The notes beneath the pieces are model-generated. The model saw nothing but the letters and a program-made list of their open reading frames with translations. It was not told where the DNA came from and searched no databases. A program made the translations under genes and the position numbers. DNA of 35,698 nt, from assembly GCA_002862985.1 (NCBI GenBank), contig PKCY01000225.1:1-35698 (forward strand). Direction: 5' to 3'. Positions 1,124 to 29,795 of this stretch are shown piece after piece. Every line of letters begins with the position of its first letter. Position 1 is the stretch's first letter. This stretch comes from Haliea sp. (GTDB lineage Bacteria > Pseudomonadota > Gammaproteobacteria > Pseudomonadales > Halieaceae).

Positions 1124-1995
1124 CGCGTTGTCTCTCCTGGTAAAAATATCTCATCCATGCGTCCCCAGCGAAAATGTTTCAAAAGACATTCTAAACGCCC
1201 GTAGGTGCGATTTAGATTCAGATAATGCCGAAACCGGGTCTTCAGACCAACGCCATCTGGGCGCGGCTGAGCCGGATCGATCTCCCAGGGATGGAAATAG
1301 AAAATACCTGACTCCTGTTCGAGCGTATTGACCCGCGACAGCGCCCAACGGGAAAAACTATAGGGAAACAATCGAAACCACCCACCTCCACCGCAGTTGA
1401 TATTTCGGCCCGCCAGCGACACGGTGGTAATCGGTATCTCCAGAAGACGACCATCAGCGGTGTCAAATGCAAAGCGCGGCGCGCCTGGTATCCCGTATAG
1501 ATCATGACGAATCGGCACGATGCTGGAACTGTAACGGTGCCCGGCGTCTGCCAGCTGTTCCCAAGCCCACGATTCAGCAGCGCCAATGGAGTAACTTGCG
1601 GCCCGATAACCGAGCACCGGCTCACCACTGATATCCTGGAGTAAATTGCGGGTTCGCTCTATGTCACCGCGAAATTCTTCTGGCGTCTGGGTATTGACAC
1701 GAATATGTTCCCAGCCATGACTGGCAATTTCATGCCCGCCTTTTACAATATCCTTTACCAACTGAGGATAGCGTTCCGCAACCCAGCCAAGAGTAAAAAA
1801 GGTCGCACGCACCTGCTCCGCGGCAAACAAATCTAGAATTCGACGCGTATTATCTTCCACCCGCCGCGGTAATGTCTGCCATTGGGATTTTTCAACATAC
1901 CCCTCGAAGGCCGACACTTGAAAGTAATCTTCAACATCCACCGTCATGGCATTAACCATGTTACTGTTGCCGGAACTTGTGAAGTGAGCATTCAT
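1120..1995 (-). CDS. XrtA system polysaccharide deacetylase (DUF3473 type)
   Basis: A NodB-fold polysaccharide deacetylase of the exosortase-linked family (TIGR03006 type). The frame shows the N-terminal TVDVEDYFQVSAFE motif carrying the metal and catalytic aspartates, HEIASHGWEH with metal-binding histidines, GYRAASYS, and the late YFHPWEID motif of the DUF3473 tail. It would remove N-acetyl groups from the exopolysaccharide. No signal peptide is evident. The open frame extends up to an ATG at 2016. I prefer the ATG at 1995 because it forms an ATGA overlap with the wecB stop and has GGTGGGG just upstream. It lies between wecB and the FemAB-like gene, overlapping both by 4 bases. Confidence 0.9.
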   Translation of the reverse strand: MNAHFTSSGNSNMVNAMTVDVEDYFQVSAFEGYVEKSQWQTLPRRVEDNTRRILDLFAAEQVRATFFTLGWVAERYPQLVKDIVKGGHEIASHGWEHIRVNTQTPEEFRGDIERTRNLLQDISGEPVLGYRAASYSIGAAESWAWEQLADAGHRYSSSIVPIRHDLYGIPGAPRFAFDTADGRLLEIPITTVSLAGRNINCGGGGWFRLFPYSFSRWALSRVNTLEQESGIFYFHPWEIDPAQPRPDGVGLKTRFRHYLNLNRTYGRLECLLKHFRWGRMDEIFLPGETTR

Positions 1996-3137
1996 GTGTT
2001 GCGCCCCACCGCCCATTGATTAATCGTCCTCACGATTCTCGTCGCCGCCATACCATCCCACAAATGCGGCAGGCGGCCAGTTTTTCCTCCAGTTTCACTT
2101 AGGTCCTCGTAGCAGGCGAGAATCATGTCCGCGTCGGTACCCACAACAGTATTAGTTCCCTCGTCTACAGTAATGGGGCGCTCTGTATTCTCACGTAAAG
2201 TAATACAGGGGACACCCAGCGCCGTGGTCTCTTCCTGGATGCCGCCTGAATCGGTTAGAACTACACGCGCATCTTTCATCAAACCCAGCATTTCAAGGTA
2301 GCCTTGGGGGGGCAAGGTCGAAATGGCAGACGCTGCCAACCAGTCACTCAAACCTGCAGCGACAATGCGCGATTCCGTTCGGGGGTGCATGGGAAACAAC
2401 AGTGGCGTTTTTCGACTAATCTGCACCAAAACCTGCAGTAATCTCTCTAGCACCACCGGGTCATCTACATTCGAGGGGCGGTGCAGAGTTACCAGTCCGT
2501 ACTTCTCGTGCAAAGACTCCGCAGAAGCATTGCTTGCTTTAGCACGGGTGACCTGAGACGGCACCACATCTTGAAGATTAAAGCGCAGGGTATCGATCAT
2601 CACATTTCCGACGAAATGTACCTTGTCCTGAGAGATACCCTCTCGTAGCAGATGGTCCTTCGCAACAGCCTCAGTTGTGAAAAGTAGCTCTGATAACTGA
2701 TCTGTAAGAATCCTGTTTATTTCCTCTGGCATATTGCGGTCACCACTGCGCAACCCGGCCTCAACATGAATTACCGGTATGTCCTTCTTGACAGCGACGA
2801 GTGCACAGGCGATGGTAGAGTTAACGTCTCCGACAACCAGCACGGCAAGAGGACGATCTTCGTCCAATACGGGCTCGAAGCGTTTCATGATATCCGCCGT
2901 CTGTTGAGCGTGGGATCCCGACCCAACTTCTAAATCCATATCCGGTTCCGGTATATGCAATTGATCAAAGAAGGCATGCTTCATTGCCGCATCGTAATGC
3001 TGACCTGTGTGCAAAAGTTTGGCTGAAAGAGCAGAATCAGGCTCAGCAAAGGCCCGCATGATCGGGGCAATCTTCATAAAATTTGGACGGGCGCCAACAA
3101 TACAAAGAATGTGACCGGAACCCGTTAAAGCGCTCAT
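1992..3137 (-). CDS. wecB: UDP-N-acetylglucosamine 2-epimerase (non-hydrolysing)
   Basis: A 381-residue cytoplasmic enzyme with the full set of WecB/MnaA motifs: GARPNFMKIAP near the N-terminus, HTGQHYD, VVGDVNST, HVEAGLRS, MPEEINR, VTLHRPSNVD and DSGGIQEE. It interconverts UDP-GlcNAc and UDP-ManNAc, supplying ManNAc (or ManNAcA after oxidation) for the polymer. The start ATG is preceded by AAGGGA at suitable spacing. The gene lies 11 bases after the outer-membrane barrel gene and overlaps the deacetylase start, so it is part of the export operon. No ManNAc dehydrogenase (WecC) is recognisable next to it. The 436-residue dehydrogenase at 13947-15257 is of the TviB/WbpO type. Confidence 0.93.
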   Translation of the reverse strand: MSALTGSGHILCIVGARPNFMKIAPIMRAFAEPDSALSAKLLHTGQHYDAAMKHAFFDQLHIPEPDMDLEVGSGSHAQQTADIMKRFEPVLDEDRPLAVLVVGDVNSTIACALVAVKKDIPVIHVEAGLRSGDRNMPEEINRILTDQLSELLFTTEAVAKDHLLREGISQDKVHFVGNVMIDTLRFNLQDVVPSQVTRAKASNASAESLHEKYGLVTLHRPSNVDDPVVLERLLQVLVQISRKTPLLFPMHPRTESRIVAAGLSDWLAASAISTLPPQGYLEMLGLMKDARVVLTDSGGIQEETTALGVPCITLRENTERPITVDEGTNTVVGTDADMILACYEDLSETGGKTGRLPHLWDGMAATRIVRTINQWAVGRNT

Positions 3138-3148
3138 ATGGGGATCCC

Positions 3149-4645
3149 TTAGAGGTTTATATTCAGAGTTGCGATGACTCTGTTTTCCTGGTATTCGTTG
3201 AAGTTAGTGTCAGATTGACGGTCAGTGAATTGGTATGTAATGGAAGCACTCAGCCGATTATTTATCGGCTTGCTGAAGTTGACGTTATAAATCCAACTCC
3301 GGGAACCTGCAAAGTCCTGGACATTGGGCAGGCCAACGAAACCAGCGGGCTCATCTTCATCATAAGTTACCGTAGCGGACACACTATAGCTTTGCGACAA
3401 CATAGGCGAATAAGTGAAGGCAACATTCTTGAACACGCCTTTAGCACCATCGATCGCTCGAGTTTGTTGGGAGTAACTACCATTCAAACTCATGCTTGCA
3501 TAGCGACCACCGTAGGTCCACGAAAGGGTTCCTCTCTCATCGAGAATTGCGCTCTCTGTGCCAAGGCTTGCATTGATACCAATGCCTTCTACGAGACTAT
3601 TCCCTCCAGTGGTAATGTCACGCCGAAAGGTGATTGTCTTATTGTAATTTGCAGAAAAGGTATTGCGCTTCCGTTGATGGGTAATATTTAAACGTGGGGT
3701 GGAGCCAAAGAAACGGTCACCACTGCCCAGTGAAACCGAAGTGCGCCTCGTAGGAGTCCAGAGAACCCCAATATCCCAAGCTTGGCCATCGGTATCAGCA
3801 TTGTTAAACGTTTGAATGTCATTAAACTCCCACCCGTAGGAGCCATTGACCTGCCACCTTCTACTAATCCGGTGACCAAGCTGCAACCGGACTGACCGCA
3901 GCTCCGTATCTTGGCGAGGCTGGAACTGGCCCGAAATCTGATTAAAAAAACCATCCTCATAACTCACTTTTGTGTAATTACCCAATAGGTTCCAATTTAG
4001 TTGGGAGGATTGCCCGCTTTGTAAGTTCGCCCTTACAATATGCCGGGAGCTATTACTCAGTGTGTCTGCAGTATTGATGACCTGGTCGTAACCATAACGC
4101 AGGTTATACTTTGCGTTATTTTTGAGTCGATGGGATAGCGTAGGAGCAATGGAATAGCGATAAAACGTATTAGTGTTACCAGTGCGGTCAAGGTCATCAC
4201 CACCACCTGGAAGACCGAAAGTAATCTCATTTTGGTCGGCCCTGCCCGCCACATCGACCTTTAGCCAATCATCGATGAGTACGGTGGAGCCCCTGGCTGA
4301 AAGGGTTGGGAAGAACTTTTCTCGGTTTTCTATTTGCGTACCAGTGCATCCGTTATCTCGGAGCTCACCATCAGTTAGAGTATTAACCTGAACAGACCCA
4401 GACGCACTGAAGCTCGACTTACGCGTCTTGTGCGAAATAGAACCGGCAGGTGTCAGAAGCGCCACACCGGTAAAATCCCCTTTTTTGTCGTCTTTGGTGA
4501 GACAGACATTATCGGTGTAGGTAAGGCTGGGAGAAATCGACGCACTGCCACTCCACTCAGCTGCAATAGCAGCCCCCCTTGAGAGACACATCAGCACAAC
4601 GAACGCCTTGGACAGTAATCTGAAACATGGGGGCGCGCATTGCAT
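3149..4645 (-). CDS. TIGR03016-type outer-membrane beta-barrel protein of the PEP-CTERM system
   Basis: A 498-residue protein with a Sec signal peptide (hydrophobic KAFVVLMCLS run, likely cleaved after AAIA at about residue 28). The rest is dense alternating beta-strand sequence rich in Tyr, Asn, Ser and Arg (for example GRYASMSLNGSYSQQTR and LSASITYQFTDRQ), as in the PEP-CTERM-associated barrel family. It probably forms an outer-membrane pore or secretion partner for the polymer, but its exact role is unknown. It starts 2 bases after the kinase stop codon and ends 11 bases before wecB, so it is firmly inside the operon. The family assignment rests on length, barrel character and position. 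Confidence 0.85.
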   Translation of the reverse strand: MQCAPPCFRLLSKAFVVLMCLSRGAAIAAEWSGSASISPSLTYTDNVCLTKDDKKGDFTGVALLTPAGSISHKTRKSSFSASGSVQVNTLTDGELRDNGCTGTQIENREKFFPTLSARGSTVLIDDWLKVDVAGRADQNEITFGLPGGGDDLDRTGNTNTFYRYSIAPTLSHRLKNNAKYNLRYGYDQVINTADTLSNSSRHIVRANLQSGQSSQLNWNLLGNYTKVSYEDGFFNQISGQFQPRQDTELRSVRLQLGHRISRRWQVNGSYGWEFNDIQTFNNADTDGQAWDIGVLWTPTRRTSVSLGSGDRFFGSTPRLNITHQRKRNTFSANYNKTITFRRDITTGGNSLVEGIGINASLGTESAILDERGTLSWTYGGRYASMSLNGSYSQQTRAIDGAKGVFKNVAFTYSPMLSQSYSVSATVTYDEDEPAGFVGLPNVQDFAGSRSWIYNVNFSKPINNRLSASITYQFTDRQSDTNFNEYQENRVIATLNINL

Positions 4646-4647
4646 AC

Positions 4648-5643
4648 TTATGCTCCCGGCTCCGAAGCGGGCTGCCTATCGCGGTGGCCGTATCCGTATG
4701 CGCCGGCACCATATCCGTAAGTGTAGTAATACGGATTGATTCGCCGGCGGGCCCGATTCAGTACCATTCCTACCATTTTCTCTTCACCAATATGCTCGAT
4801 CGCCTGGGCAACGGCGACCTGGGGCGTCATATCGGCACTCACCACAAACACTATCTGCCCCATAAAGCTTGCCAATACTGCCGCCTCAGTCGTCAGCAAC
4901 AGCGGCGGGGAGTCAAAGACTATGACCCGATTTGGGTCTTCATCTGACAACTCCAACATCAACTGCTGCATTCTCTCGCTAGCCAACAGTTCATTGGCAT
5001 GCGCATGAACACCGCCAGCAGGAAGAACCCGAAGCTTCTCAACATTGGTTGGCAAGGTGAAATCTGCCGCACTCGCGCCCGTATTTTCCAGCACATCTAT
5101 TAGGCCAGGACTCGTTGAAGGTACTCCTAACATTCGCCCCGCTTCCGCCTTGGCAGTATCGGCATCAACAAAAAGCACGTGCTTATCTCGCTCCATAGCG
5201 ATGCTCAGTGCCAAGCAAATGGAACTGAATGTTTTACCGTCGCCTTCCAGGGCACTGGTTACCATAATCAGGTTTCCATGCGGGATTGGTGGCGTCACCG
5301 AATCGCCCGCGATATTAATCAACAGTGGGCGTTTAATCGTTCTGTACTCTTCCGCAATCGCACTGCGTGGAATGGCTGGCGTTAACATTCCCAGTTCCCG
5401 TAATTCCTTGAACGGAATTTTGACCATTTCACCCGTACCGCTTGAGGGCCTCGGAGTAACTACCTCTGTGGATTGCCCGCTATTATGGTCTGCAGATGCT
5501 GCAGCAGTATCCGTGTCAGGACTTTCTTCTGCGCGCTGGACGGTATCTGCCTTGGGCACGGCATCGACGACACTTTCGTCTTTGGGTTTATTGCGCCCTG
5601 TGCTCTTACTCAGAGCGTTTACTGCCTTCTCAATGATACTCAT
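4648..5643 (-). CDS. XrtA-associated tyrosine autokinase (CpsD/Wzc-C type)
   Basis: A 331-residue cytoplasmic BY-kinase. It has a low-complexity N-terminus (about residues 15-75), a Walker A region around 130-139 (SALEGDGKTF), a Walker A' motif VLFVDAD at about 156-162, and a Walker B motif VIVFDSPP near 240. The C-terminal tail carries seven tyrosines in YYYTYGYGAGAYGYG (about 305-319), the usual autophosphorylation cluster. It would pair with the separately encoded Wzz-like protein upstream to control chain length and export. The start ATG has only a weak GGA upstream. The gene lies 58 bases after the Wzz-like gene and 2 bases before the barrel gene. Confidence 0.93.
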   Translation of the reverse strand: MSIIEKAVNALSKSTGRNKPKDESVVDAVPKADTVQRAEESPDTDTAAASADHNSGQSTEVVTPRPSSGTGEMVKIPFKELRELGMLTPAIPRSAIAEEYRTIKRPLLINIAGDSVTPPIPHGNLIMVTSALEGDGKTFSSICLALSIAMERDKHVLFVDADTAKAEAGRMLGVPSTSPGLIDVLENTGASAADFTLPTNVEKLRVLPAGGVHAHANELLASERMQQLMLELSDEDPNRVIVFDSPPLLLTTEAAVLASFMGQIVFVVSADMTPQVAVAQAIEHIGEEKMVGMVLNRARRRINPYYYTYGYGAGAYGYGHRDRQPASEPGA

Positions 5644-5701
5644 GGCTGATTCCGTAAATCTTTATAAGAAGTCGTCACTTCTCGGCTGTCAAGGCAGTTG
5701 C

Positions 5702-7342
5702 TCAGCTCCATAACAAACCACTCTGACCCATCACCAATACCAGGAAGGCAAGCAGCAGGCCAACGCCCAGAGAGGAGAAGGCCAGAATCCCGTACATTTC
5801 CCTACGCTTTTGTTCGCTTTGCAGATTAATACTCACCGACCCCAGGACGGGCAAACCAGTAATAGCCATCAATGTGCGAACGTCAAAAACCACCGGGTAA
5901 ACCAGGGATATCAACAGACTAACGGCAAGTCCTGCGGCTATTCCCGCACCCAAAACAGTCGCATTTAAAATCAGCTTATTCGGCTCACTAGGCTTCAATG
6001 GTACGTAAGGAGGATCAATTACCCGAAACGTAACATCGCTGGCTTTCTGCTCTACATCCTGCCCCAATCGCGCCAACTCACGTTTTCTCAGCATAGATGC
6101 GTGCTGGCTGTTAATTACACTATAATTTCTATTGAGCTGCTTGAGCTGCCCCTCCACTTCGGGAATAGTACTCACTTGTTCTTCCAGCTCTACAACACGC
6201 GCCTCGTACTCTTTAACCCGAACATTGAGCGTTGCGATCTTTCCTCGGGTGTCAGATAGTTTTTGGCGCATTGCCAGATAAACAGGGCTGCTGCTAAGTC
6301 CAGCGTAGGCATCGATGGGCCTCTCACCGTCGATTGCAGCAGCTTGCCTATTAGCCTGCCTTGCTTTCACTTCCGCCTGGTAGGCCGCGACCCGCTCCGC
6401 CTCTTCCTCGGTCTTCTCTTGCACCAACTGTTCAAGCATTCCCCTCAACTGACGCACCTCAGGGTGTCTGTTCGTATACTTGATTGTAAGATTGTTGAGC
6501 TGCTCCTCCACTGAGATAATTTTACTGTCTAAAGATGACAATCGAGGCGCGCCCGACGCAGTTTTCCGAGGAATTACTGATGCTTCCCGTGTTTGATTGG
6601 CGATGTATAGAGGATCCTCTCCTGAAAGCTGACGCTCCAATTCGATCACCCTGTTCGCCTCTTCCTTAAGCATTAACTTCGCCTGCGTCACTTTGTTTCG
6701 CTCGGCGTTGAGATTCTTGTAGTAGTCTCCTCTACCGCCGAGAATATCTACATGTTTTTGTTTGAAATTTGCAGACCGGGTTTCTGCTGCAATCAGGCGC
6801 ACCTCATAGGCCTTAATCTGGTCGTCTAGGAATCCATGAGCACCAGACGCATCCTCACGCTTTCCGCTCAGTGAACTTTCGATAAATACCGTAATGAGGG
6901 CCTGAGCAATTCGCTTTGCCGTATCCCGATCGGGATCTTGCACGGAAATAGAGTATAGCGATTTGTCTCTTTTCCCGCCCACCAGGCGGATGGATTTCAT
7001 TAGTTTCGACAGTAACTCATCCTTCTCTTTCGCCGTTGTCACTTGCAAGTCCAAGTCAGTCATGCGCATCAGCTTTTCGAGATTTGGTCGGCTTAACAGT
7101 GTCCTGCTGAGCAGTCCTATGCTTGCCTGAACGTCTGGTTGGATAGCTAGCCCAGCCAACAGGGGTCGCAGAACAGTGTTTGTATCCACATAGACCCTGG
7201 CTTTGGCCACATAGGCTTCAGGCAGCTGCCATACCCAAATCCAACCTCCTATCGCCACTAACCAGGCGACAATAAGCGCCAACCATCGATGGCGCCACGC
7301 CCCCCAGACATATGAGAATACTTGTGCAAGAATTTCCTGCAT
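5702..7342 (-). CDS. XrtA system polysaccharide chain-length determinant (Wzz/GumC-like)
   Basis: A 547-residue inner-membrane polysaccharide co-polymerase. There is an N-terminal TM helix at about 19-38, the Wzz-type [11 protein letters not shown] segment directly after it, a long periplasmic coiled-coil region (heptad-like Glu/Leu/Arg sequence), a second TM helix around 455-480 and a third hydrophobic stretch at the C-terminus. It lacks a kinase domain, which is supplied by the next gene. The frame extends upstream to a TTG at 7366. I chose the ATG at 7342 because MQEILAQ matches the usual beginning of this family and GAAGGA lies at good spacing before it. The gene follows the Wza-like gene after 35 bases. 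Confidence 0.92.
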
Positions 7343-7377
7343 TAATCGTTTTCCTTCACTCAGCAATCACGGACAGA

Positions 7378-8031
7378 TTAAAACCAGGATTCAGCTATGA
7401 TCAAAATATCGCCAGGCATCATCGACATGTTGGCTGAAATATCACCGTCTTTTATCAAGTCATCCAGACGCAGGCTGTACGTTACCTCTTGACCATCAAC
7501 CGTGCGAATCAGCACAGAGTTGTTCCCATCGGCATATGCAGTGATTCCATTAGTCGCAATCATCAGATCAAGCAGAGTCATGTGCTTTCTGTAAGGAATA
7601 CGTCTTGGATTTGTCGCTTCTCCCACCACCCTGATCGTTTGTTCAGGCACACCGACGAAACCGGTTACAATTACACTCACAACGGGTTGACGAACATATT
7701 CTGAATATGCCACTTCAATATCGCGAGCCAATTGCGTTGATGTCTTACCGCTGGCCTGAAGGTCTTCCACCAGGTGAGTGGTCAGCTTGCCATCAGGACG
7801 GATAGAGCCCCCCGAACTTAGCTCGTCGTTACCCCATACGAAAATAGATACCAAATCGCCAGGCCCCAAAATGTAGTCATAATCGACTTCAACATTCCGT
7901 TGAGAATCTGGTACGGGGGGGTAATCTGTGGATGTGCATCCGGCACTAAACATAAGAACAATTACTACGGCGCCTGATACAAACTTTTTTAGCAACGAAA
8001 ATGAACCAGAACGCGCAAGATTATTGATCAT
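7378..8031 (-). CDS. XrtA/PEP-CTERM polysaccharide export lipoprotein (Wza/EpsE-like)
   Basis: A 217-residue outer-membrane polysaccharide export protein. The lipoprotein signal peptide ends in SAGC with the lipidated cysteine at residue 32. A Poly_export domain follows (DYILGPGDLVSIFVWGND, then SIRPDGKLTTHLV, about 50-125), and then a SLBB-like segment (IRVVGEATNPRRIPYRKHMT) up to the end. It is shorter than E. coli Wza, as is normal for XrtA loci. AGGAG lies at good spacing before the ATG. It is the first gene of the export run, followed by the Wzz-like gene. It may have its own promoter in the 215-base gap after the ATPase gene, where I see no clear -35/-10 pair. Confidence 0.93.
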   Translation of the reverse strand: MINNLARSGSFSLLKKFVSGAVVIVLMFSAGCTSTDYPPVPDSQRNVEVDYDYILGPGDLVSIFVWGNDELSSGGSIRPDGKLTTHLVEDLQASGKTSTQLARDIEVAYSEYVRQPVVSVIVTGFVGVPEQTIRVVGEATNPRRIPYRKHMTLLDLMIATNGITAYADGNNSVLIRTVDGQEVTYSLRLDDLIKDGDISANMSMMPGDILIIAESWF

Positions 8032-8246
8032 CTTTTTCTCCTTCGGGCAATCACAGACCCATCATTATCTTTAAAGTTTATCATGCAGCCAGTGCAGTAA
8101 ATCAGTCAGCGGGCACACATTGTGAACAACGTCACACAGATACCTTCATTGCAACAGAGTAAAGCGAAAAACGCTACTTCAACCTGACAAGATTATTCCC
8201 ATAATTGCGACTACGCTGTGAATCTGGATGCGAGAACAATGGTAGC

Positions 8247-10274
8247 TCACCTACCGATTTCATTGGCAAGTGTAATCTGTACGATTCGATACTGCCTCAT
8301 ATCCGATACGAAATTCAGGGCGGTATTGTCAGCTGACCCACCAAACACTCCGAGCCCTTCAACCTGCAATCTATGGCGCTCAATGCCCGCTTCTACCAAA
8401 TACTGTTCGACAGCTTCTGCACGCTCCCGCGACAAGGCCAAATTATAAAGTTCATCACCCTGGTTATCAGCAAACCCCTCAATCGAGGCAGTGCCCTCAG
8501 GATTCTCAATCATCCAGGCGACAGCCTTAGCCAATGCAGGCTGTGATTCCTCAAGTGGGTCGTTACTATCAAATGAAAACTGTACCAGATAGATTAGCCC
8601 AGCGGAATCTTCAGCAATGTTGTCTGGTCGGTTTGTCAGGGGATTTTCCGCCGGCAAATGCGCGAGAGATGGCAGGTCAATTCCATCGGGTGTATCAACC
8701 GGTTCGAGCAGTGAGCTCTCTATAAAATCATCCGCAGAAGCCCGAGTAGCTGAAGGTGAAACACCGCTCAGGACGAGTTCCAGCTCTTGCTCTTCAGCAA
8801 TCGGGGCTGAGGGCAAACTTTCCGCCACAAATTCATCGGTTTCGATACGTCCACGCACCTGACCTCCTCCCACTCGACCTTCATTGGAGAGCGTACTGGC
8901 CTCCGAGATGCTTGCCTTCGGCTGGGGTTGCTCACCAGGCGTTGACGCTCCCTCCGGGGGCAGCTCAATTTTCCGGTACGCCCCCTCGTTCTGGCGAGAG
9001 ACAACGGTTCCCAGAAAAAATACCATCATAATGGCAATGAGTATAAGTGAAGAAAATCCGATTACTCGTCCCCAACCATACCGGGGCCCTGTGTGAGTGC
9101 GCCGCTTTGCAGGCACCCTGTCATGACTTGCGACCGGAATAATATCAGGAGTCAGCTGGTCTGTTACATCAGTAGCGGACGAACCGTCTGTTTCGAAACC
9201 TGACTCCGCGCTTTCGGGCAGATGGCTGCCGCTTGAGTCCGTCGGCTTAAGTTCGGTTGTTACAGCGGGCTTAGCTTTTTTTTTTGAATCTATGTTAGAC
9301 GGAGCCGATCCGCTATCGGCAGCTGAAAATGACTCACTGTTGATTGCATGCAGATAGACTTCAGGGCAATCCTCGTGCTGCGTGATTTCTCCGGGTACTG
9401 GCACCCACTGGGCCTCTCCACTCACCAAAAAGTCAATTTCCGAGATACTGGTTCCTGCCGCGAGATTCTCGGCCTGCAGCTCTCCAATGACAACACGGAC
9501 ATCATCAACAGCGATGGTATGACGCTGCTCGACACTTCCGAGTAAAAATAGGCGACTACAAATAAGATTAATGCGGCGGGGAACACCTTCGCTAAACCTG
9601 TGGATCAGCGGAAAGATTGCCCTGTCTATGGCTGGATCGCCGCACCAGCCAACGGCCTGCAAGCGATGCATAACATAAGCTTCCGTTTCGTCAGACTCCA
9701 GGCCTTCAATATGAGTTGCGGCAACGATACGTTGATGCACCTGCTCCATCTCGGGCGACAAAATCAAATCTCGCAGCTCTGGCTGTCCAAGCAAAAAAAT
9801 CTGCAACAGCGGCTGCCCACCCAATTGAATATTCGTTAATAGTCGCAACTCCTCCATCGCAGAAGGCGAAAGGTCCTGTGCTTCATCAACAATCAACAGG
9901 GCACGCCGACCTTCCCTGTGCCTGCGCTGAAAGAGCACATTCAGGCGCTGCAATAACTCGGCCTTATCTGCGCGCTTCGAACCAATACCGAAACTAAAAG
10001 CCACAGATTTCAAAAGATCATCCGCCTCCAACTGGGTACAAACAAGGTTGGCGGTGGCCACTTTATCCTGAGCGAGGTTCTCCACCAGCTCACCTATCAG
10101 GGTCGTCTTGCCGGTGCCGGGCCGACCGGTGATCATCACAAAGCCTTCAGCTCGCTTAAAAGCGTAGACCATATACGCCCGCGCCTTTGCATAGCTGTTG
10201 TGCTCATAGCAGAATTTGTGATCGGGACTCAGCCGGAACGGCTCGGCCTGCAAATTATAAAAGGTTTCGTACAT
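8247..10274 (-). CDS. XrtA-associated AAA ATPase fused to an OmpA-like peptidoglycan-binding domain
   Basis: A 675-residue fusion. Residues 1-270 match the ExeA/GspA-like ATPase of exosortase loci (TIGR03015 type): MYETFY start, Walker A GRPGTGKTT at 50-58, Walker B LLIVDEAQDLS at 126-136, and a VPRRINLIC sensor region near 231-239. A polar linker follows, then one TM helix at about 403-425, an acidic periplasmic linker, and an OmpA-like domain at about 561-670. The OmpA domain has GFAD (D603) and LSRERAEAVEQYL (R618) at the expected diaminopimelate-binding positions. The predicted topology is ATPase inside and OmpA domain in the periplasm. The typical family member is about half this length and ends after the ATPase. 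The frame extends to a TTG at 10337, but MYETFY matches the family start. No strong ribosome-binding site is visible. Confidence 0.9.
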   Translation of the reverse strand: MYETFYNLQAEPFRLSPDHKFCYEHNSYAKARAYMVYAFKRAEGFVMITGRPGTGKTTLIGELVENLAQDKVATANLVCTQLEADDLLKSVAFSFGIGSKRADKAELLQRLNVLFQRRHREGRRALLIVDEAQDLSPSAMEELRLLTNIQLGGQPLLQIFLLGQPELRDLILSPEMEQVHQRIVAATHIEGLESDETEAYVMHRLQAVGWCGDPAIDRAIFPLIHRFSEGVPRRINLICSRLFLLGSVEQRHTIAVDDVRVVIGELQAENLAAGTSISEIDFLVSGEAQWVPVPGEITQHEDCPEVYLHAINSESFSAADSGSAPSNIDSKKKAKPAVTTELKPTDSSGSHLPESAESGFETDGSSATDVTDQLTPDIIPVASHDRVPAKRRTHTGPRYGWGRVIGFSSLILIAIMMVFFLGTVVSRQNEGAYRKIELPPEGASTPGEQPQPKASISEASTLSNEGRVGGGQVRGRIETDEFVAESLPSAPIAEEQELELVLSGVSPSATRASADDFIESSLLEPVDTPDGIDLPSLAHLPAENPLTNRPDNIAEDSAGLIYLVQFSFDSNDPLEESQPALAKAVAWMIENPEGTASIEGFADNQGDELYNLALSRERAEAVEQYLVEAGIERHRLQVEGLGVFGGSADNTALNFVSDMRQYRIVQITLANEIGR

Positions 10275-10442
10275 CCAGAATATCGCTTGCTGTGTACTCT
10301 CATTCCAGAGCTTCACAGACTTCAATATCCTTTGCAAGACACATTCAGGTAACCCTGTTAAGCTTTTTACCTAAAATGGGAGGTAAGCTACAAAATGTGG
10401 CTATCGTATGGACTTCCTGAAAAAGCTATCAAGCCAACTGCG

Positions 10443-11036: not shown

Positions 11037-11471
11037 GTGGATAGTTTCACTGACAAAAACAGGGGTGCCGCAGCAGGTTCTGAGCCAGAGCACACCGGTC
11101 AGCTTCAAGATCCCAAACGACGCAGTTTCTCGCGCAAAGCTCTAGTGGGAAGCGCTGTGCTCCTTTCTTTGGGAAACCGGGCAGCTTGGGGTCAGGCTAC
11201 TAACCTCTGCATGTCTGTAGCCACCATCAACTCCTTTGATCCCACTAGTGGAGTGTTCATCTCTGCGCCCGCTGGCGCCAACGGCTTCCCAGGCCAACGC
11301 CCGGACCACAATGCCAACCTTGCGAATGAGATTCATAGGATCTCCTCTGAAGGCACCGACTACGTCGGAACTGGCATCGGCTCAGACGGCAATACTTATT
11401 CTTCCTGCGTTGATCCCGGTTCTGCAGATAAGCGATGCTTGGTGAAAGGCGAAATCTGTCCTGATCAATAA
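11037..11471 (+). CDS. Small exported Cys-containing protein with a Tat-like signal, candidate substrate of the HPr-rel-A module
   Basis: A protein of about 144 residues. Its N-terminal polar region leads to KRRSFSRKALVGSAVLL, which resembles a twin-arginine motif followed by a modest hydrophobic core, with a likely cleavage after AAWGQA. The predicted mature part is about 90 residues, glycine- and asparagine-rich, with four cysteines. Three are near the C-terminus, in SSCVDPGSADKRCLVKGEIC. The frame opens at a TTG (11025), but the GTG at 11037 is preceded by GGGGG at good spacing. I do not recognise a domain. Its place 139 bases before a PqqD-like/HprK-like/nucleotidyltransferase run makes it a plausible modified substrate, which is inference. 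Confidence 0.6.
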   Translation: MDSFTDKNRGAAAGSEPEHTGQLQDPKRRSFSRKALVGSAVLLSLGNRAAWGQATNLCMSVATINSFDPTSGVFISAPAGANGFPGQRPDHNANLANEIHRISSEGTDYVGTGIGSDGNTYSSCVDPGSADKRCLVKGEICPDQ

Positions 11472-11610
11472 CCATTTGCTCAAATTGCTGCTCGATGGGG
11501 GATAGTGCAAACGCATTAACCTCCCTTATCCAAAAAACAAAAACCCATCGCTGGTCTTATCGCCACCCTTTTGAAATAATCGCAGCACACATCAAGTAGC
11601 TCCTGTATCT

Positions 11611-11880
11611 ATGAAATGGCGGAAAAACTCCAGCGGTTCATTTTATGACGCCAACGAGAGCTCGGTGGTTTATTTTGATCCACGCAGTGGCGACACTCAT
11701 CTTCTTAGCGATTTCGCAGCCTATGTCGTGCAACAATTTGGCGAACAACCGCGAACCACTGAGCAATTGCTAAATCAAATATTGCCCACGGTAGAGCAAG
11801 GGGACATTCCCCATCTCACCGACTCTCTCCCGGGCGTTCTGGAGGATTTGGTGACCCTCGATATCCTGAAGCGAGAATAG
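11611..11880 (+). CDS. HPr-rel-A system PqqD family peptide chaperone
   Basis: An 89-residue protein with the PqqD-like fold pattern seen in the HPr-rel-A family (TIGR04353 type): an N-terminal W-containing strand, VVYFDPRSGDTHLLSDFAAY in the middle, and helices ending in LVTLDILKRE. PqqD-like proteins bind leader peptides and present them to modifying enzymes. The stop codon directly abuts the ATG of the next gene, so the two are co-translated. The ATG at 11611 has no strong ribosome-binding site. No radical SAM enzyme accompanies it, which separates this from PQQ-like systems. Confidence 0.82.
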   Translation: MKWRKNSSGSFYDANESSVVYFDPRSGDTHLLSDFAAYVVQQFGEQPRTTEQLLNQILPTVEQGDIPHLTDSLPGVLEDLVTLDILKRE

Positions 11881-12801
11881 ATGCAGCAGCTGGCGAATCT
11901 TTCAGACAGTGAACTCAACCAGCGACTAGCGTTTGAGGGCTTGGATCTTCAGGTCGGGCCCTATATCTACAAGATAAAGACTAACCTACCCCTGGTCGGG
12001 TCCGGTATCTCAACATTGTATAAAAATTTCAATCTCGCTCAGCCCGAGGCATTCATCGACTACAATGTCGCCATTCTCAGTAAGGGTCTGTTGCAACGCT
12101 TGCGCGGCCAGTCGGATTTTTTATTTGATAACACAAACCCATTTGACAGCATCCCAACCGGGCAGGCATATGCATTCCTCGAATGGGGCATGAATTGGTG
12201 TGTCTCACTGCACACCAATGAGTATCTAAAATTGCATGCCGCAGCGGTTGCCAGGGGAGATCACACAATCATTATGCCTGGGGTACCAGGAGCAGGGAAA
12301 AGCACGCTTTGCGCCGCACTGGGCCTAAGTGGATGGCGAATTCTTTCTGATGAGCATGCCATGATTCCGCCCAATACGACCGAGGTGGTTCCACTCTGTC
12401 GGCCTGTGAGTCTTAAAAACGAGAGTATTGGTGTCATCAAACGCTTTTCCTCAAACGCCATATTTGGACCCGTCAGCAGAGAGACACACAAGGGCGTGGT
12501 CGCCCACATGAAGGCGGACCTGCACCCGCAGAGCCACGAAAAAAAGACCTTAAAAGCACGCACTATGGTTTTTCCAAGATATGCCAAGGATGAAACTCAG
12601 AGGCTGAGCCCACGCCGGCGCACAGAAAGCTTCATCCTCGCGGCGTATCATTCCTTCAACTACAGTTTGCTGTGTGAAACCGGCTTCGAAGCTATGAAAA
12701 CCCTTATAGAAAACGTGACCTGCTACGATCTGGTCTATCACGATCTCGACTGGGCGGTGAATGCAGTGGACTCATTAGCGGACCCTGAGCCCAACCCATG
12801 A
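11881..12801 (+). CDS. HprK-related kinase A
   Basis: A 306-residue protein resembling the C-terminal catalytic domain of HPr kinase (TIGR04352 type). KLHAAAV leads to a P-loop GVPGAGKST at 134-142, and LSDEHAMI at 155-162 supplies the acidic metal/base positions. HprK-like enzymes phosphorylate serine, and related enzymes in lasso-peptide clusters phosphorylate the peptide C-terminus. The target here is unknown. It begins immediately after the pqqD-like stop codon and overlaps the nucleotidyltransferase start by ATGA. No HPr or PTS gene is nearby, so a role in sugar-phosphotransfer control is not indicated. Confidence 0.85.
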   Translation: MQQLANLSDSELNQRLAFEGLDLQVGPYIYKIKTNLPLVGSGISTLYKNFNLAQPEAFIDYNVAILSKGLLQRLRGQSDFLFDNTNPFDSIPTGQAYAFLEWGMNWCVSLHTNEYLKLHAAAVARGDHTIIMPGVPGAGKSTLCAALGLSGWRILSDEHAMIPPNTTEVVPLCRPVSLKNESIGVIKRFSSNAIFGPVSRETHKGVVAHMKADLHPQSHEKKTLKARTMVFPRYAKDETQRLSPRRRTESFILAAYHSFNYSLLCETGFEAMKTLIENVTCYDLVYHDLDWAVNAVDSLADPEPNP

Positions 12802-13901
12802 GTTTTCTTCTGCAGCAACTGCTGCTCCACCCTCGTCGCATACTAGACCTGGACAATGCTCAGTTAAATCAATTGATTTCCCAGGCTCGTAGTTCGAACC
12901 TTCTGGCATCACTAGCAATGGAACTGGCGAGTGAGCACTTAGAAAACCAGCTCTCTCCCAGCGTCACTCGCCACTTCCAATCTGCACTATTGATCCATGA
13001 GAAACAAAAACGCGATTTGGACTATGACATTGAAAAAATCAGGTTGGCGCTGGATTCTATTGGCGAAAAACTGGTGCTACTCAAAGGTGCGGCCTATTTA
13101 CTCGCAGAATTGCCAGTAGGTCGTGGCCGCCTTATCAGCGATATTGATATCATCGTACCCCTCCAAAGCATCGACCCGACGGAACGAGCATTAAACGAAG
13201 TCGGCTGGGAGAGCAGCTATATCAACAGCTACAATGAATATTACTATCGAAAGTGGGGCCACGAGATCCCACCCCTAACCCATCTAAAGCGCGGCACGAC
13301 ACTGGACGTGCATCACAACATTTTACCGCCCACGGCCGGGCCAAATGTCGACGCAAGCCTGTTGTTTGAACGCCTGATTGAAGTCAAGCCCGGTATATTT
13401 ACGCTTTCACGGCAAGACATGGTAATCCACAGCGCCACCCACCTCTTTCACGAAGGTGAGTTTCGCCATGGGCTACGCGATATGTGGGACCTCGATCGTA
13501 TGCTACGGGACTTCCCTGACCAAGATCCCAATTTCTGGAAGGGTCTGGTGGACAGAGGGCGTGAACTTGAATTGCTGAACTCTTTATATCACGGCCTGAA
13601 TTACGCCCAACTCGTATTCGGAACACCCTTACCTGACGGAATTATTAAAGAGGCGGAAAATCTGAGCCGGAGGCTGCGCAAACCGTTCATGGATTTTCTG
13701 TTTCTGCGCGCATTTCAGCCTGACCATCCACAATGCAGACAGCGGTTTACATCATTGGCATTATATTTATTGTATGTGCGCTCGCACTACCTGCGAATGC
13801 CGTTGTATCTTCTGCTACCGCACCTCGCCAGGAAGGCGTGGATGAGACATTTCGACAAAAAAGAATCTCTTGAAAATGAGAAAACCCCGGAAGCTATCTA
13901 G
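12798..13901 (+). CDS. Nucleotidyltransferase family protein of the HPr-rel-A module
   Basis: A 367-residue protein of the uncharacterised nucleotidyltransferase type (PF14907-like). It has VLLKGAAYL at 93-101, then the paired-aspartate motif SDIDIIV at 114-120, then TLDVHHNILPP, which fits the family's conserved histidine/aspartate segment. The C-terminal third is helical and basic. Members of this family also occur in lasso-peptide and other peptide-modification clusters. The gene overlaps the kinase by 4 bases (ATGA). It ends 45 bases before the convergent tviB-like gene, with no obvious hairpin between them. Confidence 0.82.
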   Translation: MSFLLQQLLLHPRRILDLDNAQLNQLISQARSSNLLASLAMELASEHLENQLSPSVTRHFQSALLIHEKQKRDLDYDIEKIRLALDSIGEKLVLLKGAAYLLAELPVGRGRLISDIDIIVPLQSIDPTERALNEVGWESSYINSYNEYYYRKWGHEIPPLTHLKRGTTLDVHHNILPPTAGPNVDASLLFERLIEVKPGIFTLSRQDMVIHSATHLFHEGEFRHGLRDMWDLDRMLRDFPDQDPNFWKGLVDRGRELELLNSLYHGLNYAQLVFGTPLPDGIIKEAENLSRRLRKPFMDFLFLRAFQPDHPQCRQRFTSLALYLLYVRSHYLRMPLYLLLPHLARKAWMRHFDKKESLENEKTPEAI

Positions 13902-16458: not shown

Positions 16459-18609
16459 TTGGTGAGTTTAGAATTGGACGCACAAACCAGCATACTCGGC
16501 AACATTGGCTTCTACAGCTACGGTATGGCGTCGCTCGCTTATATCATGGTGATGATCCTGGCTTTCATCATCCGACGAAACAGTCCTTTAGGCACTGCCT
16601 TACTGGCCGCTACCGCCTTTACCGCACTTTGGGCCTCAGCGGTGACTGTATCGACACTACTGTGGGAACCGCAAATAAGACTCATCCAGTTGACGGAAAT
16701 TATCCGAAACGCTTCCTGGATATTCGTAATATTAACGCTCCTCGGTACTCGTCTACAGGGCACGAATCACATATTAGCAACTGACCGTTGGTTGCCATGG
16801 TTTACCATTGCCATTTTACTGATACTCTCCGCAGTGTTCGGCGTCGAACCTCTCGTAGAGAAGTTTTCACCTGCCTTCGACGTGTCAATTTATGTGAACT
16901 TTAGCGCCTGGCTAGGAATGTCTATCGTGGGCCTGTTGCTGCTGGAACAATTTTTTCGCAACAGCGACGAGGATGAATTGTGGGCAACCAAGCACTTGTG
17001 CGTTGGACTGGGCATATTGTTCGCGTTTGACTTTTTCATGTACGCCGAGGGCCTGCTGTTTCGTCATTTAGATCAAACACTGTGGCAAGCGCGAGGTTTT
17101 GTCTCTACGATGGCCGCTGCATTGATGGCTATCAGCATTGCTCGCACTGATCGCAGCGAACCGTCAAACGACAATCAGGGCATTTACCTATCTCGGCACG
17201 TTGCCTTCCACTCGCTAACACTGATGGCCTCGGGTATATACCTAATCACGATGGCTCTGGCCGCGTATTTCATCCGCTATCTTGGGGGCGATTGGAGTGG
17301 GGTTTTCCAGATAGCGTTTTTGTGTGCAGCAGGCCTTACCCTGATTGTATTGCTTTTCTCTGGCCAGATTCGGGCTCACTCTCGAGTATGGCTGAGCAAG
17401 AACTTTTTTAGCTACAAATACGATTACCGTCTCGAATGGTTGCAATTTACGCGTATGCTCGCAAGCGGCGACAAAGATGTTCCGAAAAATATTATTCGTG
17501 CTGTAAGCAAGCTCGCCAAGAGCCCATCAGGAATACTTTGGAGCCTAACAGATAATGGAAGATTCAATATCGTGGCAAACTGGGAGATGCCTCCACTGAA
17601 AACTGATATCGATCTTGGTAATGTGGCTCAGTGGTTGCAAGCGCACGGATGGATCATTGATTTGCGCGAATGGCGAAGCGCGCCTGACGTCTATCGAAAT
17701 CTGCAGTTACCCGCACTGTTGACAGAAATTCCTCGTGCATGGCTCGTTATTCCCCTGCTGTTTGACGACAGACTACAGGGCATTTTGCTGTTGCGGGAAC
17801 CTGAACCCGTAAAAGATCTTAACTGGGAAGATCGCGATCTGCTCAAGTTAGCCGGCCGCCAAGCAGCAAGCCATCTGGCCCAATTCCAGTCAGATAAAGC
17901 ACTGGTTGATTCGCGACAGTTTGAAGCATTCAACCGTCTGAGCGCCTATGTCATCCACGATCTCAAAAATATCCTGGCGCAACTTTCCCTTGTGGTCTCA
18001 AATGCTCAGAAACACAAAGAAAACCCTGAGTTCATTGACGACATGGTCAATACAGTCAGCAATTCGGTAACCCGCATGAGTAAACTAATGGCACAGTTAC
18101 GCAGTGGCGCGGGGCAAACCGAGCTACAACAGCTTGATTTGGATGAATTGCTCGAAAGCGTCGTGGCTAATTGTAAGCTGCGCGTGCCGGTCCCCGAGTT
18201 TTCGCAAGTAGATGGCGACTATGCCCTAAGAGGTGACTATGACCGTTTGCAAACAGTGTTCAGTCACTTGATACAAAACGCACAAGAAGCAACAGAAAAA
18301 GAGGGCCGGGTGTCTGTCCGACTGATGAACAGTCCCGGTTGCGCCATTGTGGAAATAGAGGATAACGGCACGGGTATGGAAGAGCAATTTATCAGGCACC
18401 GTCTCTTCAAACCTTTCGATTCCACCAAGGGACTTACCGGCATGGGCATCGGGGCATTCGAAAGCCGAGATTTCATCCGAAACCTGGGTGGTGAGATAAG
18501 CGTCAGTAGTACGCCAGGACAGGGCTCACTATTTCGTGTGAGTATACCAACAGGAAACACAATTGAAGTTAAGCATGAAAGTGCCAAGCAAGAGGTTAAC
18601 AATCGGTGA
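16459..18609 (+). CDS. prsK: XrtA/PEP-CTERM system histidine kinase PrsK
   Basis: A 716-residue membrane sensor kinase. Residues about 15-300 hold a series of hydrophobic helices starting with GNIGFYSYGMASLAY, the usual PrsK opening. A GAF-like region follows (about 330-470), then the H-box YVIHDLKN with H500, the N-box LIQNAQEA (N607), G1 EDNGTGM and G2 GMGIGAFESRD. It would sense an unknown signal and phosphorylate PrsR, encoded by the next gene. The stop overlaps the prsR GTG (GTGA). The start is uncertain: the frame opens at a TTG (16459) followed at once by a GTG (16462), and neither has a clear ribosome-binding site. Confidence 0.93.
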   Translation: MVSLELDAQTSILGNIGFYSYGMASLAYIMVMILAFIIRRNSPLGTALLAATAFTALWASAVTVSTLLWEPQIRLIQLTEIIRNASWIFVILTLLGTRLQGTNHILATDRWLPWFTIAILLILSAVFGVEPLVEKFSPAFDVSIYVNFSAWLGMSIVGLLLLEQFFRNSDEDELWATKHLCVGLGILFAFDFFMYAEGLLFRHLDQTLWQARGFVSTMAAALMAISIARTDRSEPSNDNQGIYLSRHVAFHSLTLMASGIYLITMALAAYFIRYLGGDWSGVFQIAFLCAAGLTLIVLLFSGQIRAHSRVWLSKNFFSYKYDYRLEWLQFTRMLASGDKDVPKNIIRAVSKLAKSPSGILWSLTDNGRFNIVANWEMPPLKTDIDLGNVAQWLQAHGWIIDLREWRSAPDVYRNLQLPALLTEIPRAWLVIPLLFDDRLQGILLLREPEPVKDLNWEDRDLLKLAGRQAASHLAQFQSDKALVDSRQFEAFNRLSAYVIHDLKNILAQLSLVVSNAQKHKENPEFIDDMVNTVSNSVTRMSKLMAQLRSGAGQTELQQLDLDELLESVVANCKLRVPVPEFSQVDGDYALRGDYDRLQTVFSHLIQNAQEATEKEGRVSVRLMNSPGCAIVEIEDNGTGMEEQFIRHRLFKPFDSTKGLTGMGIGAFESRDFIRNLGGEISVSSTPGQGSLFRVSIPTGNTIEVKHESAKQEVNNR

Positions 18610-19964
18610 AAAAAAACAACAAACACCTGCTAGTGGTAGAGGATGATAAGGGTTTACAAAGTCAGCTGCGCTGGGCGTTTGATGACTTTGAAGTAGCAAT
18701 CACCGGGGATCGCATCGAAGCCCTTAACAGTCTGCGCCGAATTCCACCCGGAGTAGTATTGCTGGACCTTGGTCTTCCGCCAGACCCGGGAGGCGTTACG
18801 GAAGGTCTTGCCACATTGAGCGAGATTCTCGCACTGGCTCCCGAGACAAAAGTCATCATTGTGACGGGCGACAACGACCGGGCTAATGCGGTAAAGGCGA
18901 TTGCTTTGGGAGCCTATGATTTTTATCAAAAGCCTGCAGATCCTGAGCTATTAGCGCTGCTTGTGAAACGTGCCTATCATGTGTACGAACTGGAGCGCGA
19001 AAATCAAAGACTGCAGCAATCCGATGAGAATATGCCCCTAAGAGGCATCATCACAGCCAGCCCTCAGATGCTCAAAGTTTGCCGCACGATCGAAAAGATC
19101 GCCCCTTCCAATATCACTACCCTCCTCCTGGGAGCGAGCGGAACCGGCAAGGAGCGCTGCGCTCAGGCTATTCACGAACTGAGTCCACGCTCCGACAAAT
19201 CTTTAGTGGCCATAAACTGCGCCGCCATTCCGGAAAATCTACTGGAGAGTGAATTATTCGGATACGAGAAAGGCGCGTTTACAGGGGCCGCTAAACAAAC
19301 TCCCGGTAAAATCGAGTACGCTCACGAGGGAACACTGTTTCTGGACGAAGTTGGGGACCTACCGATGGAATTGCAAGCCAAGCTTTTGCGCTTCCTACAG
19401 GAACGGGTGGTCGAACGAATAGGTGGGCGTAAAGAAATACCGGTAGATGTGAGAATTCTGTGCGCGACACACCAAAATTTGCAGGACTTGATTTCAAAAG
19501 GCCTGTTTCGAGAAGATTTGTATTACCGCATTAGTGAAATCGTACTGGAGATTCCTCCGCTCAAAGACCGCGAAGGCGATGTTCTAGTCTTGGCAAAGTC
19601 ATTTCTGAATCAGATGGGTATCGAGTACAACAACCCTGGGTTAAGATTTTCCACAGAAGCCATTACGGCCATGGAAGCTTATGACTGGCCAGGAAATGTC
19701 CGCGAACTTGAAAGCCGGATCAAACGCGGAATAATAATGGCAGAGGGTCAACACATTAGCGAAGAAGACCTCGAACTGACAAGCGCACCCGCCGCCGAGC
19801 CTATGCCACTCAATTTGAGAGAAGTACGCGAGCAAGCGGAGCGTAGAGCGATAATTCGAGCTATGAGCCATTACAGTCAGAGTATTACCGACGCAGCCAA
19901 TGCACTGGGCATTACCCGCCCAACGCTTTATAACCTGCTGGAGAAACTGGGAATAAAATCCTGA
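18606..19964 (+). CDS. prsR: PEP-CTERM-box response regulator PrsR (sigma-54 activator)
   Basis: A 452-residue NtrC-type regulator. The receiver domain spans 1-125 with phospho-acceptor D54 in LLDLGLPPD. A sigma-54-interacting AAA domain spans about 145-380, with Walker A GASGTGKE (176-183), GAFTGA (223-228) and Walker B GTLFLDE (242-248). A Fis-type HTH at the end contains ITDAANALGITRPTLYNLL. The intact GAFTGA shows it should activate sigma-54 promoters. A matching promoter lies in this window before the PEP-CTERM gene (29781-29795). It starts with GTG overlapping the prsK stop, and converges on prsT with 55 bases between. Confidence 0.95.
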   Translation: MKKNNKHLLVVEDDKGLQSQLRWAFDDFEVAITGDRIEALNSLRRIPPGVVLLDLGLPPDPGGVTEGLATLSEILALAPETKVIIVTGDNDRANAVKAIALGAYDFYQKPADPELLALLVKRAYHVYELERENQRLQQSDENMPLRGIITASPQMLKVCRTIEKIAPSNITTLLLGASGTGKERCAQAIHELSPRSDKSLVAINCAAIPENLLESELFGYEKGAFTGAAKQTPGKIEYAHEGTLFLDEVGDLPMELQAKLLRFLQERVVERIGGRKEIPVDVRILCATHQNLQDLISKGLFREDLYYRISEIVLEIPPLKDREGDVLVLAKSFLNQMGIEYNNPGLRFSTEAITAMEAYDWPGNVRELESRIKRGIIMAEGQHISEEDLELTSAPAAEPMPLNLREVREQAERRAIIRAMSHYSQSITDAANALGITRPTLYNLLEKLGIKS

Positions 19965-29687: not shown

Positions 29688-29693
29688 GCCCAT

Positions 29694-29699: not shown

Positions 29700-29780
29700 C
29701 GTAATTCTACTAAAAACCTTATTCCGACCCCGGAACCCATCTAACTTGTCTGTTGTCGGCGATTGCTACCGATATATAAA

Positions 29781-29795
29781 GCAAACCTTGTGCCA
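29781..29795 (-). promoter_or_regulatory. Sigma-54 (RpoN) promoter of the PEP-CTERM gene
   Basis: On the minus strand the sequence reads TGGCACAAGGTTTGC, followed by TTT. This matches the sigma-54 consensus TGGCAC-N5-TTGC exactly, with the GG and GC elements 10 bases apart. It lies about 95 bases before the PEP-CTERM start codon. The sigma-54 activator PrsR is encoded in the same window, and PrsR-type regulators are known to be associated with PEP-CTERM gene promoters. Confidence 0.88.

Follow-up and report, generated by a model that had tools for sequence, protein, structure and literature searches.

NCBIfam lists an HprK-related kinase A and a PqqD-family protein under the name HPr-rel-A system, in which a 'peptide chaperone' figures, and neither it nor Pfam contains a model for a partner of these proteins. 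We take the nucleotidyltransferase family NTP_transf_5 to be part of this system as well. Among tailored lasso peptides (paeninodin, pseudomycoidin), HPr-kinase homologues phosphorylate a C-terminal serine of the precursor and a nucleotidyltransferase extends the product, which in pseudomycoidin means that the phosphorylated peptide receives one or two hexoses, as set out in a review (PMC8498205). Here we analyze four plus-strand genes at positions 11037-13901 of a 35,698-nucleotide stretch of Haliea sp. DNA (contig PKCY01000225.1; G000:C10), called the window below and lying at the start of its contig. In order, they encode a 144-residue protein with a twin-arginine leader, PqqD_rel_X, HprK_rel_A and NTP_transf_5. 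We report that the first of these represents a dedicated partner family, new to the named HPr-rel-A system. On balance we lean toward the view that the four genes form one protein-modification system coupled to the twin-arginine translocation (Tat) pathway, in which leader binding, serine phosphorylation, extension by the nucleotidyltransferase and Tat export would be combined.

As in the HPr-rel-A system, the kinase and the PqqD-like protein of the window exceed the curated cut-offs, the latter barely, and an NTP_transf_5 gene adjoins them; the difference lies in the partner, which, like eight others scanned, has no NCBIfam or Pfam match above cut-off. The original prediction, made from the sequence, had delimited the module at these same positions, and its three family assignments are confirmed by the scores, as is its exopolysaccharide setting by the XrtA/PEP-CTERM genes identified around it. 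It had called the triplet fused or overlapping, which holds in its second part only: the PqqD stop codon (11878-11880) directly abuts the kinase ATG (11881) and the kinase and NTP_transf_5 genes overlap by four bases, but all three genes are separate, and an automatic fusion test printed no PqqD-HprK fusion among relatives. It had also noted the absence of a B2-type protease and an asparagine-synthetase-like cyclase, and we found neither among 25 window proteins scanned (five against Pfam and NCBIfam, ten against NCBIfam, ten against Pfam). An ordinary lasso cluster is rejected on this ground, and the locus differs further from those of tailored lasso peptides in the Tat-like leader of the partner and in its passenger, of 44 to 215 residues in most loci. 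HPr kinase/phosphorylase (HprK) shares with HprK_rel_A an aligned His, P-loop and following Asp, but the two match only weakly and over part of the profile (positions 118-176, E 0.0014), and no HPr protein was found among the 25 proteins scanned. The PEP-CTERM/exosortase system occupies the same locus and genomes, but the partner itself bears no such signal: its C terminus reads CLVKGEICPDQ and the PEP-CTERM model matched neither it nor eight others, so that a PEP-CTERM substrate was rejected. A defence system was likewise discarded, with no PADLOC match.

Full-text literature, searched in a collection that leaves out most subscription papers and all preprints, gave no paper on the HPr-rel-A system, its kinase name or accession, none on an exosortase with PqqD or an HPr kinase, and none on a nucleotidyltransferase with PEP-CTERM and a Tat signal, or on a RiPP recognition element (RRE; RiPP, ribosomally synthesized and post-translationally modified peptide) with Tat and a kinase. 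The papers found there that treat HPr kinase, PqqD and nucleotidyltransferase together concern lasso peptides, judged by title. By a term search, the 2006 PEP-CTERM paper (PMC1569441) makes no mention of HPr, PqqD or nucleotidyltransferase.

HprK_rel_A scored above its cut-off in 21 of 57 genomes of relatives and in 27 of 274 genomes of the class, two sets that both include G000 (the genome of the window) and G055. For the count of partners we used 129 loci whose HprK reached at least 180 bits to our own kinase profile: 23 from the relatives, 26 from the class and 80 named loci, the last being 80 of at least 123 confirmed matches from one genome-contig scan. Two kinase pieces each came from G003 and G014; L059, L060 and L061 (94-96 bits to the kinase profile) and loci short of E 1e-20 stand outside this set. 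To find partners we used a leader profile refined by iteration over these loci, which gave partners at 115 loci in the first round and 119 in the final one; they had to be on the strand of the kinase and to end between 400 bases inside and 1.2 kb before the kinase frame. Leader scores were E 1e-3 or better in 118 of the 119, with L039 at 0.21. Four partners were added outside this rule: those of L064 and L065, which lie downstream of the operon, that of L139, at 1.6 kb upstream, and that of L057, whose kinase frame is long. The results show a Tat-like-leader partner at 123/129 HprK_rel_A loci. Five of the six loci without one (L007, L014, L054, L100, L104) are cut by contig ends, and the sixth is L092. 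In a control with the non-iterated leader profile (E 0.01) on the 8145 open reading frames (ORFs) of the 80 named loci, 70 matches lay beside the operon and two farther away, these two being a second partner in L120 and the partner of L139. Two leader-bearing partners stand in each of L064 (5668-7104) and L120 (7514-9567). PqqD was found beside HprK at 118/129 loci with an iterated profile (113/129 before iteration), and NTP_transf_5 at 124/129 (E 1e-20), where the five misses are contig ends (L030, L031, L055) or opposite-strand genes truncated where the retrieved piece ends (L056, L058).

The association also holds in the reverse direction. A profile of 28 leaders (A4) matched 21/21 kinase-positive relatives versus 1/36 kinase-negative ones, the lone negative, G052, being weak (7.9e-4); leaders from 4 of the 21 had contributed to A4, and those of the other 17 had not. 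In the class, where up to 26 candidates were scored per genome, A4 matched 23/27 kinase-positive versus 6/247 negative genomes; 12 of the 27 had contributed, and 11 of the 15 non-contributors were recovered. The four misses comprise divergent leaders (G163, G190, G278) and a contig end (G314). Fisher tests of leader with kinase gave 4e-24 for the class and 1e-14 for the relatives, to be read as guide values since the genomes are related. A full-length profile of the most common kind of partner (type II, below; A5) matched 20/21 kinase-positive relatives and 0/36 negative ones. Among the kinase-negative matches in the class, those of G157, G222 and G239 are leader proteins of 57-149 residues at most about 2 kb from divergent HprK-like genes; in G092 the match is a leader peptide of this kind, 75 residues long, on an 11 kb contig without kinase; the matches of G177 and G212 look unrelated, the first judged by eye to be a common small Tat protein and the second no real gene. 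Leader proteins near divergent HprK-like genes were located in L191 (4576-4749 and 6212-6391; 57 and 59 residues), L192 (5741-6190; 149 residues) and L193 (6446-6709; 87 residues), with PqqD in L192 and L193 and NTP_transf_5 in L192; together they apparently make up a sister system with short products.

What is conserved in the leader reaches beyond an ordinary Tat signal, as the separation obtained with the 29-residue leader alone (profile A7, from the same 28 sources as A4) shows. A7 recovered 19 of 21 partners at E 8.7e-6 or better, with the G036 partner at 0.012 and the G029 partner unlisted; the best other match in the 57 genomes reached 6.5e-4 and spanned model columns 2-19 only. The leader mostly ends in S/N-R-P/A-x-x-G/A, which looks like an addition to the general Tat signal, as expected if the PqqD-like or another protein reads the leader. 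In the window, the leader seen by eye has a twin-arginine motif, KRRSFSRKAL (arginine codons 11118-11123), a hydrophobic stretch, then AWG/Q and a Cys-bearing tail; AWG/Q is a plausible signal-peptidase site, at 11192/11193. The gene itself is real, with phmmer homologues at 16 other loci, 5′ of PqqD; GTG 11037 was taken as its start, where aligned homologues begin, 11025 being the first possible. TatC is present in G000, in 55 of the 57 relatives' genomes and in all 21 kinase-positive ones. A RiPP-type system would have a precursor whose leader is bound by an RRE or PqqD protein; here a conserved leader is paired with PqqD, a putative binder of it.

Behind this common leader we distinguished three types of passenger among the 123 partners, with lengths given as residues beyond the leader model. 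Type I (18 partners, including that of the window) has 44-93 residues with Cys and was found only in the window family and Sediminihaliea; type II (80) has 119-215 residues, median 149, and mostly a motif like S/T-P-G-Y-W; type III (25) has 6-174 residues, median 90, and a serine close to the C terminus in a motif such as C-W-T-S-L. Alignments of types I and II (15 and 24 sequences) match one another over the leader only (38 columns, E 1.2e-10). The predicted structure of the type II passenger of L070 is a helical domain (mean predicted local distance difference test (pLDDT) score 82; blocks from residue 51 mostly >90), for which the PDB gave no fold relative better than E 2. The original prediction had singled out the small upstream protein with its twin-arginine-like signal and Cys-rich tail as a candidate substrate, and the adjacency check it proposed speaks for its place in the module: the partner is likely a substrate, because it is almost always paired with the operon and carries conserved serines. 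Its expectation of an always adjacent homologue stands for the leader and fails for the passenger, whose type I form is confined as described. Its peptide substrate is replaced in most loci by a whole protein, with peptide-sized passengers only in L049 (roughly 12 residues) and L138 (26 residues past the leader model). The conserved residues it proposed to look for at the C terminus turn out to be serines near a cysteine, which follow the signal in type I and type II partners and stand near the C terminus in type III. What it observed is thus confirmed, and its interpretation partly supported. The 74-residue partner of L049 (787-1011), whose post-signal core of about a dozen residues ends in CISCNASLI, comes nearest to a true peptide product.

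Serines are the most conserved passenger residues. In the 56 of 80 type II partners that come from named loci, the top columns are Ser38 (56/56), Ser42 (98%), the twin arginines (96% each) and Cys35 (96%); in type I, Cys58, Ser60 and Ser66 (window numbering, counted from GTG 11037) are invariant in the 15 of 18 partners aligned. Of the 98 partners of types I and II, 95 have a C-x(1-3)-S motif around the leader end (stretch median 51 residues), versus 522 of 5000 random stretches matched in length, 1203 of 5000 random ones with a Cys and 334 of 5000 random 35-residue ones. The type III serine is aligned in 25/25, 22 of which had been selected by a regular expression containing that serine; a type III-like expression fits 113 of 5000 random C termini. 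The conserved Cys was also weighed as the modified residue; it is at 96% in A5 versus 100% and 98% for the serines and is replaced by Ala in some type III partners, so that serine is preferred over cysteine, not proven.

Passenger and kinase change together, since the types fit the kinase tree at the minimum number of changes: on a quick tree of the 129 kinases the three types need 2, versus a mean of 39.6 after shuffling, and 0 of 200 shuffles came as low. Type I kinases form a single group (support 100) among type II kinases.

The kinase and the nucleotidyltransferase both keep catalytic motifs. The His, P-loop and Asp of HprK are its catalytic residues; they are kept in HprK_rel_A aligned to 1jb1 and 1ko7, and H119, G137, G139, K140, S141, T142 and D157 are invariant in 31 sequences (alignment A2). 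In NTP_transf_5, K96-G97, D115, D117 and D170 (K-G…DxD and a further Asp) are invariant in 47 sequences (A6). Its predicted model (pLDDT 93) has nucleotidyltransferases as nearest solved folds, among them viral poly(A) polymerases and ANT(2'')-Ia, with weak scores (best E 0.025), and no solved structure matched it by sequence.

By analogy with the lasso-peptide kinase and nucleotidyltransferase (PMC8498205), we propose the following mechanism. The PqqD-like protein would recognize the conserved leader of the partner in the cytoplasm, and HprK_rel_A would phosphorylate a conserved passenger serine: Ser60 or Ser66 in the window, the C-x-x-S serine right after the signal in type II, and the serine near the C terminus in type III. 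NTP_transf_5 would then add a nucleotidyl or sugar group, most likely onto the serine phosphate, and the Tat pathway would export the modified protein, its leader being cut at A-W-G/Q. In bacteria that have an exosortase, the product may act in the envelope or within the exopolysaccharide matrix.

Exosortase co-occurs with the kinase, in 24/27 kinase-positive versus 67/247 negative genomes of the class and in 20/21 versus 13/36 of the relatives, which makes a role of the modified protein in the envelope or matrix of such bacteria probable. Kinase and exosortase share a contig in 12 kinase-positive relatives, at 11.3 to 12.9 kb in ten (G001, G004, G008, G011, G013, G015, G016, G018, G019, G031), 6.6 kb in G029 and about 45 kb in G022; the exosortase of G008 is cut by a contig end. 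No exosortase was found in the window's genome; since the window contig ends 11.9 kb from the kinase, the gene may lie just past the edge.

Other explanations account for parts of this evidence. That the small protein is an unrelated Tat substrate and a neighbor by chance could be argued from its lack of a family match and from passengers that differ across lineages, but the locus counts (adjacency at 123/129) and reciprocal co-occurrence contradict it, and we give it next to no credence. The partner might instead be a scaffold, sensor or effector of the kinase and no substrate, while the enzymes act elsewhere, for instance on a lipid carrier or a precursor of exopolysaccharide. Consistent with this are the exosortase enrichment in the class, a second HprK-like and NTP_transf_5 pair that stands in a polysaccharide locus (L198) without leader protein, and the frequent proximity of the operon to exopolysaccharide genes: 25 of 49 named loci longer than 20 kb have a homologue of an exopolysaccharide-block or regulator gene of the window (phmmer 1e-10), a count that includes genes with general relatives (regulators, tetratricopeptide repeat (TPR) proteins), and 20 of 49 do by a stricter gene list. 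A PqqD-family, RRE-like protein adjoining a leader protein nonetheless favors peptide recognition, and the passenger type follows the kinase, with serines as top type II columns, which leaves a non-substrate partner unlikely. It is also on the unlikely side, although a serious contender, that the kinase alone modifies the serine and the nucleotidyltransferase works separately, for instance on another acceptor or in regulating the kinase. The opposite-strand genes of L056 and L058 would suit such a separate role; the near-constant presence of NTP_transf_5, missed only at contig ends or piece edges, and the precedent of phospho-glycosylation (PMC8498205) oppose it.

Several observations weigh against the favored reading, that of one Tat-coupled modification system. 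Although the Tat motif is seen by eye and in the alignment and TatC is in the genome, no Pfam or NCBIfam TAT model matched the window partner or seven of the eight others scanned, the eighth, L056, having a match below the cut-off. L092, a metagenome-assembled genome of Phycisphaeraceae with full flanks, has HprK, PqqD and NTP_transf_5 (8300-9650, +) and no recognizable upstream partner. The PqqD-like protein of the window is scarcely over the NCBIfam cut-off and below that of Pfam (E 0.065), and none was detected at 11/129 loci, among them L014, which is truncated. For seven loci the rule failed or conflicted and the type was assigned by eye (L049, L125 and L138 as III; L042, L076, L098 and L127 as II). 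The candidate serine follows the signal in type I and type II passengers and stands near the C terminus in type III, so that a single shared site is unproven. Type III kinases form one group with weak support (43), in a quick tree that gave long-branch warnings (L132; L138 placed with sphingomonads).

If the system is as proposed, it would bring together three fields seldom in contact: peptide modification guided by a leader, Tat export of proteins that were first modified in the cytoplasm, and the exopolysaccharide matrix to which exosortases are linked in environmental bacteria. With its own partner and precise candidate residues, the unexplained HPr-rel-A system becomes testable. A more specific and quite speculative version is that exosortase-bearing proteobacteria carry out Tat-coupled, leader-guided phospho-glycosylation or nucleotidylation, placing a sugar-phosphate or nucleotide on a conserved serine before export to yield an envelope protein that anchors or primes exopolysaccharide. 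Were this true, the short leader peptides beside divergent kinases would place the pathway, as one branch, within a wider class of modified peptides that Tat exports.

Table 1. Positions of the module and of the neighboring exopolysaccharide genes in the window.
Feature	Positions	Strand	Support
Tat-like-leader partner protein, 144 amino acids from GTG, type I passenger, likely substrate	11037..11471	+	
Leader: twin-arginine motif, hydrophobic stretch, conserved NRAAWG end	11109..11192	+	Profile A7, 6.8e-12 in own genome; this leader is one of the 28 A7 rows
Candidate modification site: Cys58 (11208-11210), Ser60 (11214-11216), Ser66 (11232-11234)	11208..11234	+	Invariant in 15 aligned type I partners
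PqqD-family RRE-like protein (PqqD_rel_X), putative leader binder	11611..11880	+	TIGR04353, 35.8 bits vs cut-off 35
HprK-related kinase A	11881..12801	+	TIGR04352, 323.4 bits vs cut-off 200
NTP_transf_5 nucleotidyltransferase	12798..13901	+	PF14907, 147 bits vs cut-off 31.2
XrtA/PEP-CTERM exopolysaccharide block (FemAB, deacetylase, epimerase, TIGR03016, tyrosine kinase, chain length, export, ATPase)	92..10337	-	
PrsK-PrsR two-component system	16459..19964	+	TIGR02916, TIGR02915

The operon sits in an XrtA/PEP-CTERM exopolysaccharide locus marked by FemAB, TIGR03016, tyrosine kinase, chain length, PrsK, PrsR and PrsT genes. By its kinase, the closest named relative among the matches listed is Sediminihaliea albiluteola (family Halieaceae, 54% identity), in a scan that may omit records very close to the window's genome. 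Upstream of the partner the nearest match to a sigma-54 site has two mismatches, and such matches occur in chance number; promoter-like and terminator-like sites in the window are also at chance level. The pattern TGGCACNNNNNTTGCW is sigma-54-like. Its matches with at most two mismatches number 23 versus 22, which is chance level, and its sole perfect match in the window lies at 29780-29795 (-), about 87 bases before a PEP-CTERM gene (28722-29693). The second NTP_transf_5 and HprK-like genes of the window's genome stand at 4815-5936 (-) and 11449-12474 (-) of L198, another apparent polysaccharide locus, in which neither PqqD nor a leader protein was detected. Two PrsT TPR genes lie within the window locus (20020-22797 and 30004-32784 (-)), and the ORF at 8247-10337 (-) combines an XrtA-associated ATPase domain (TIGR03015, slightly under cut-off) with a C-terminal OmpA-like domain.

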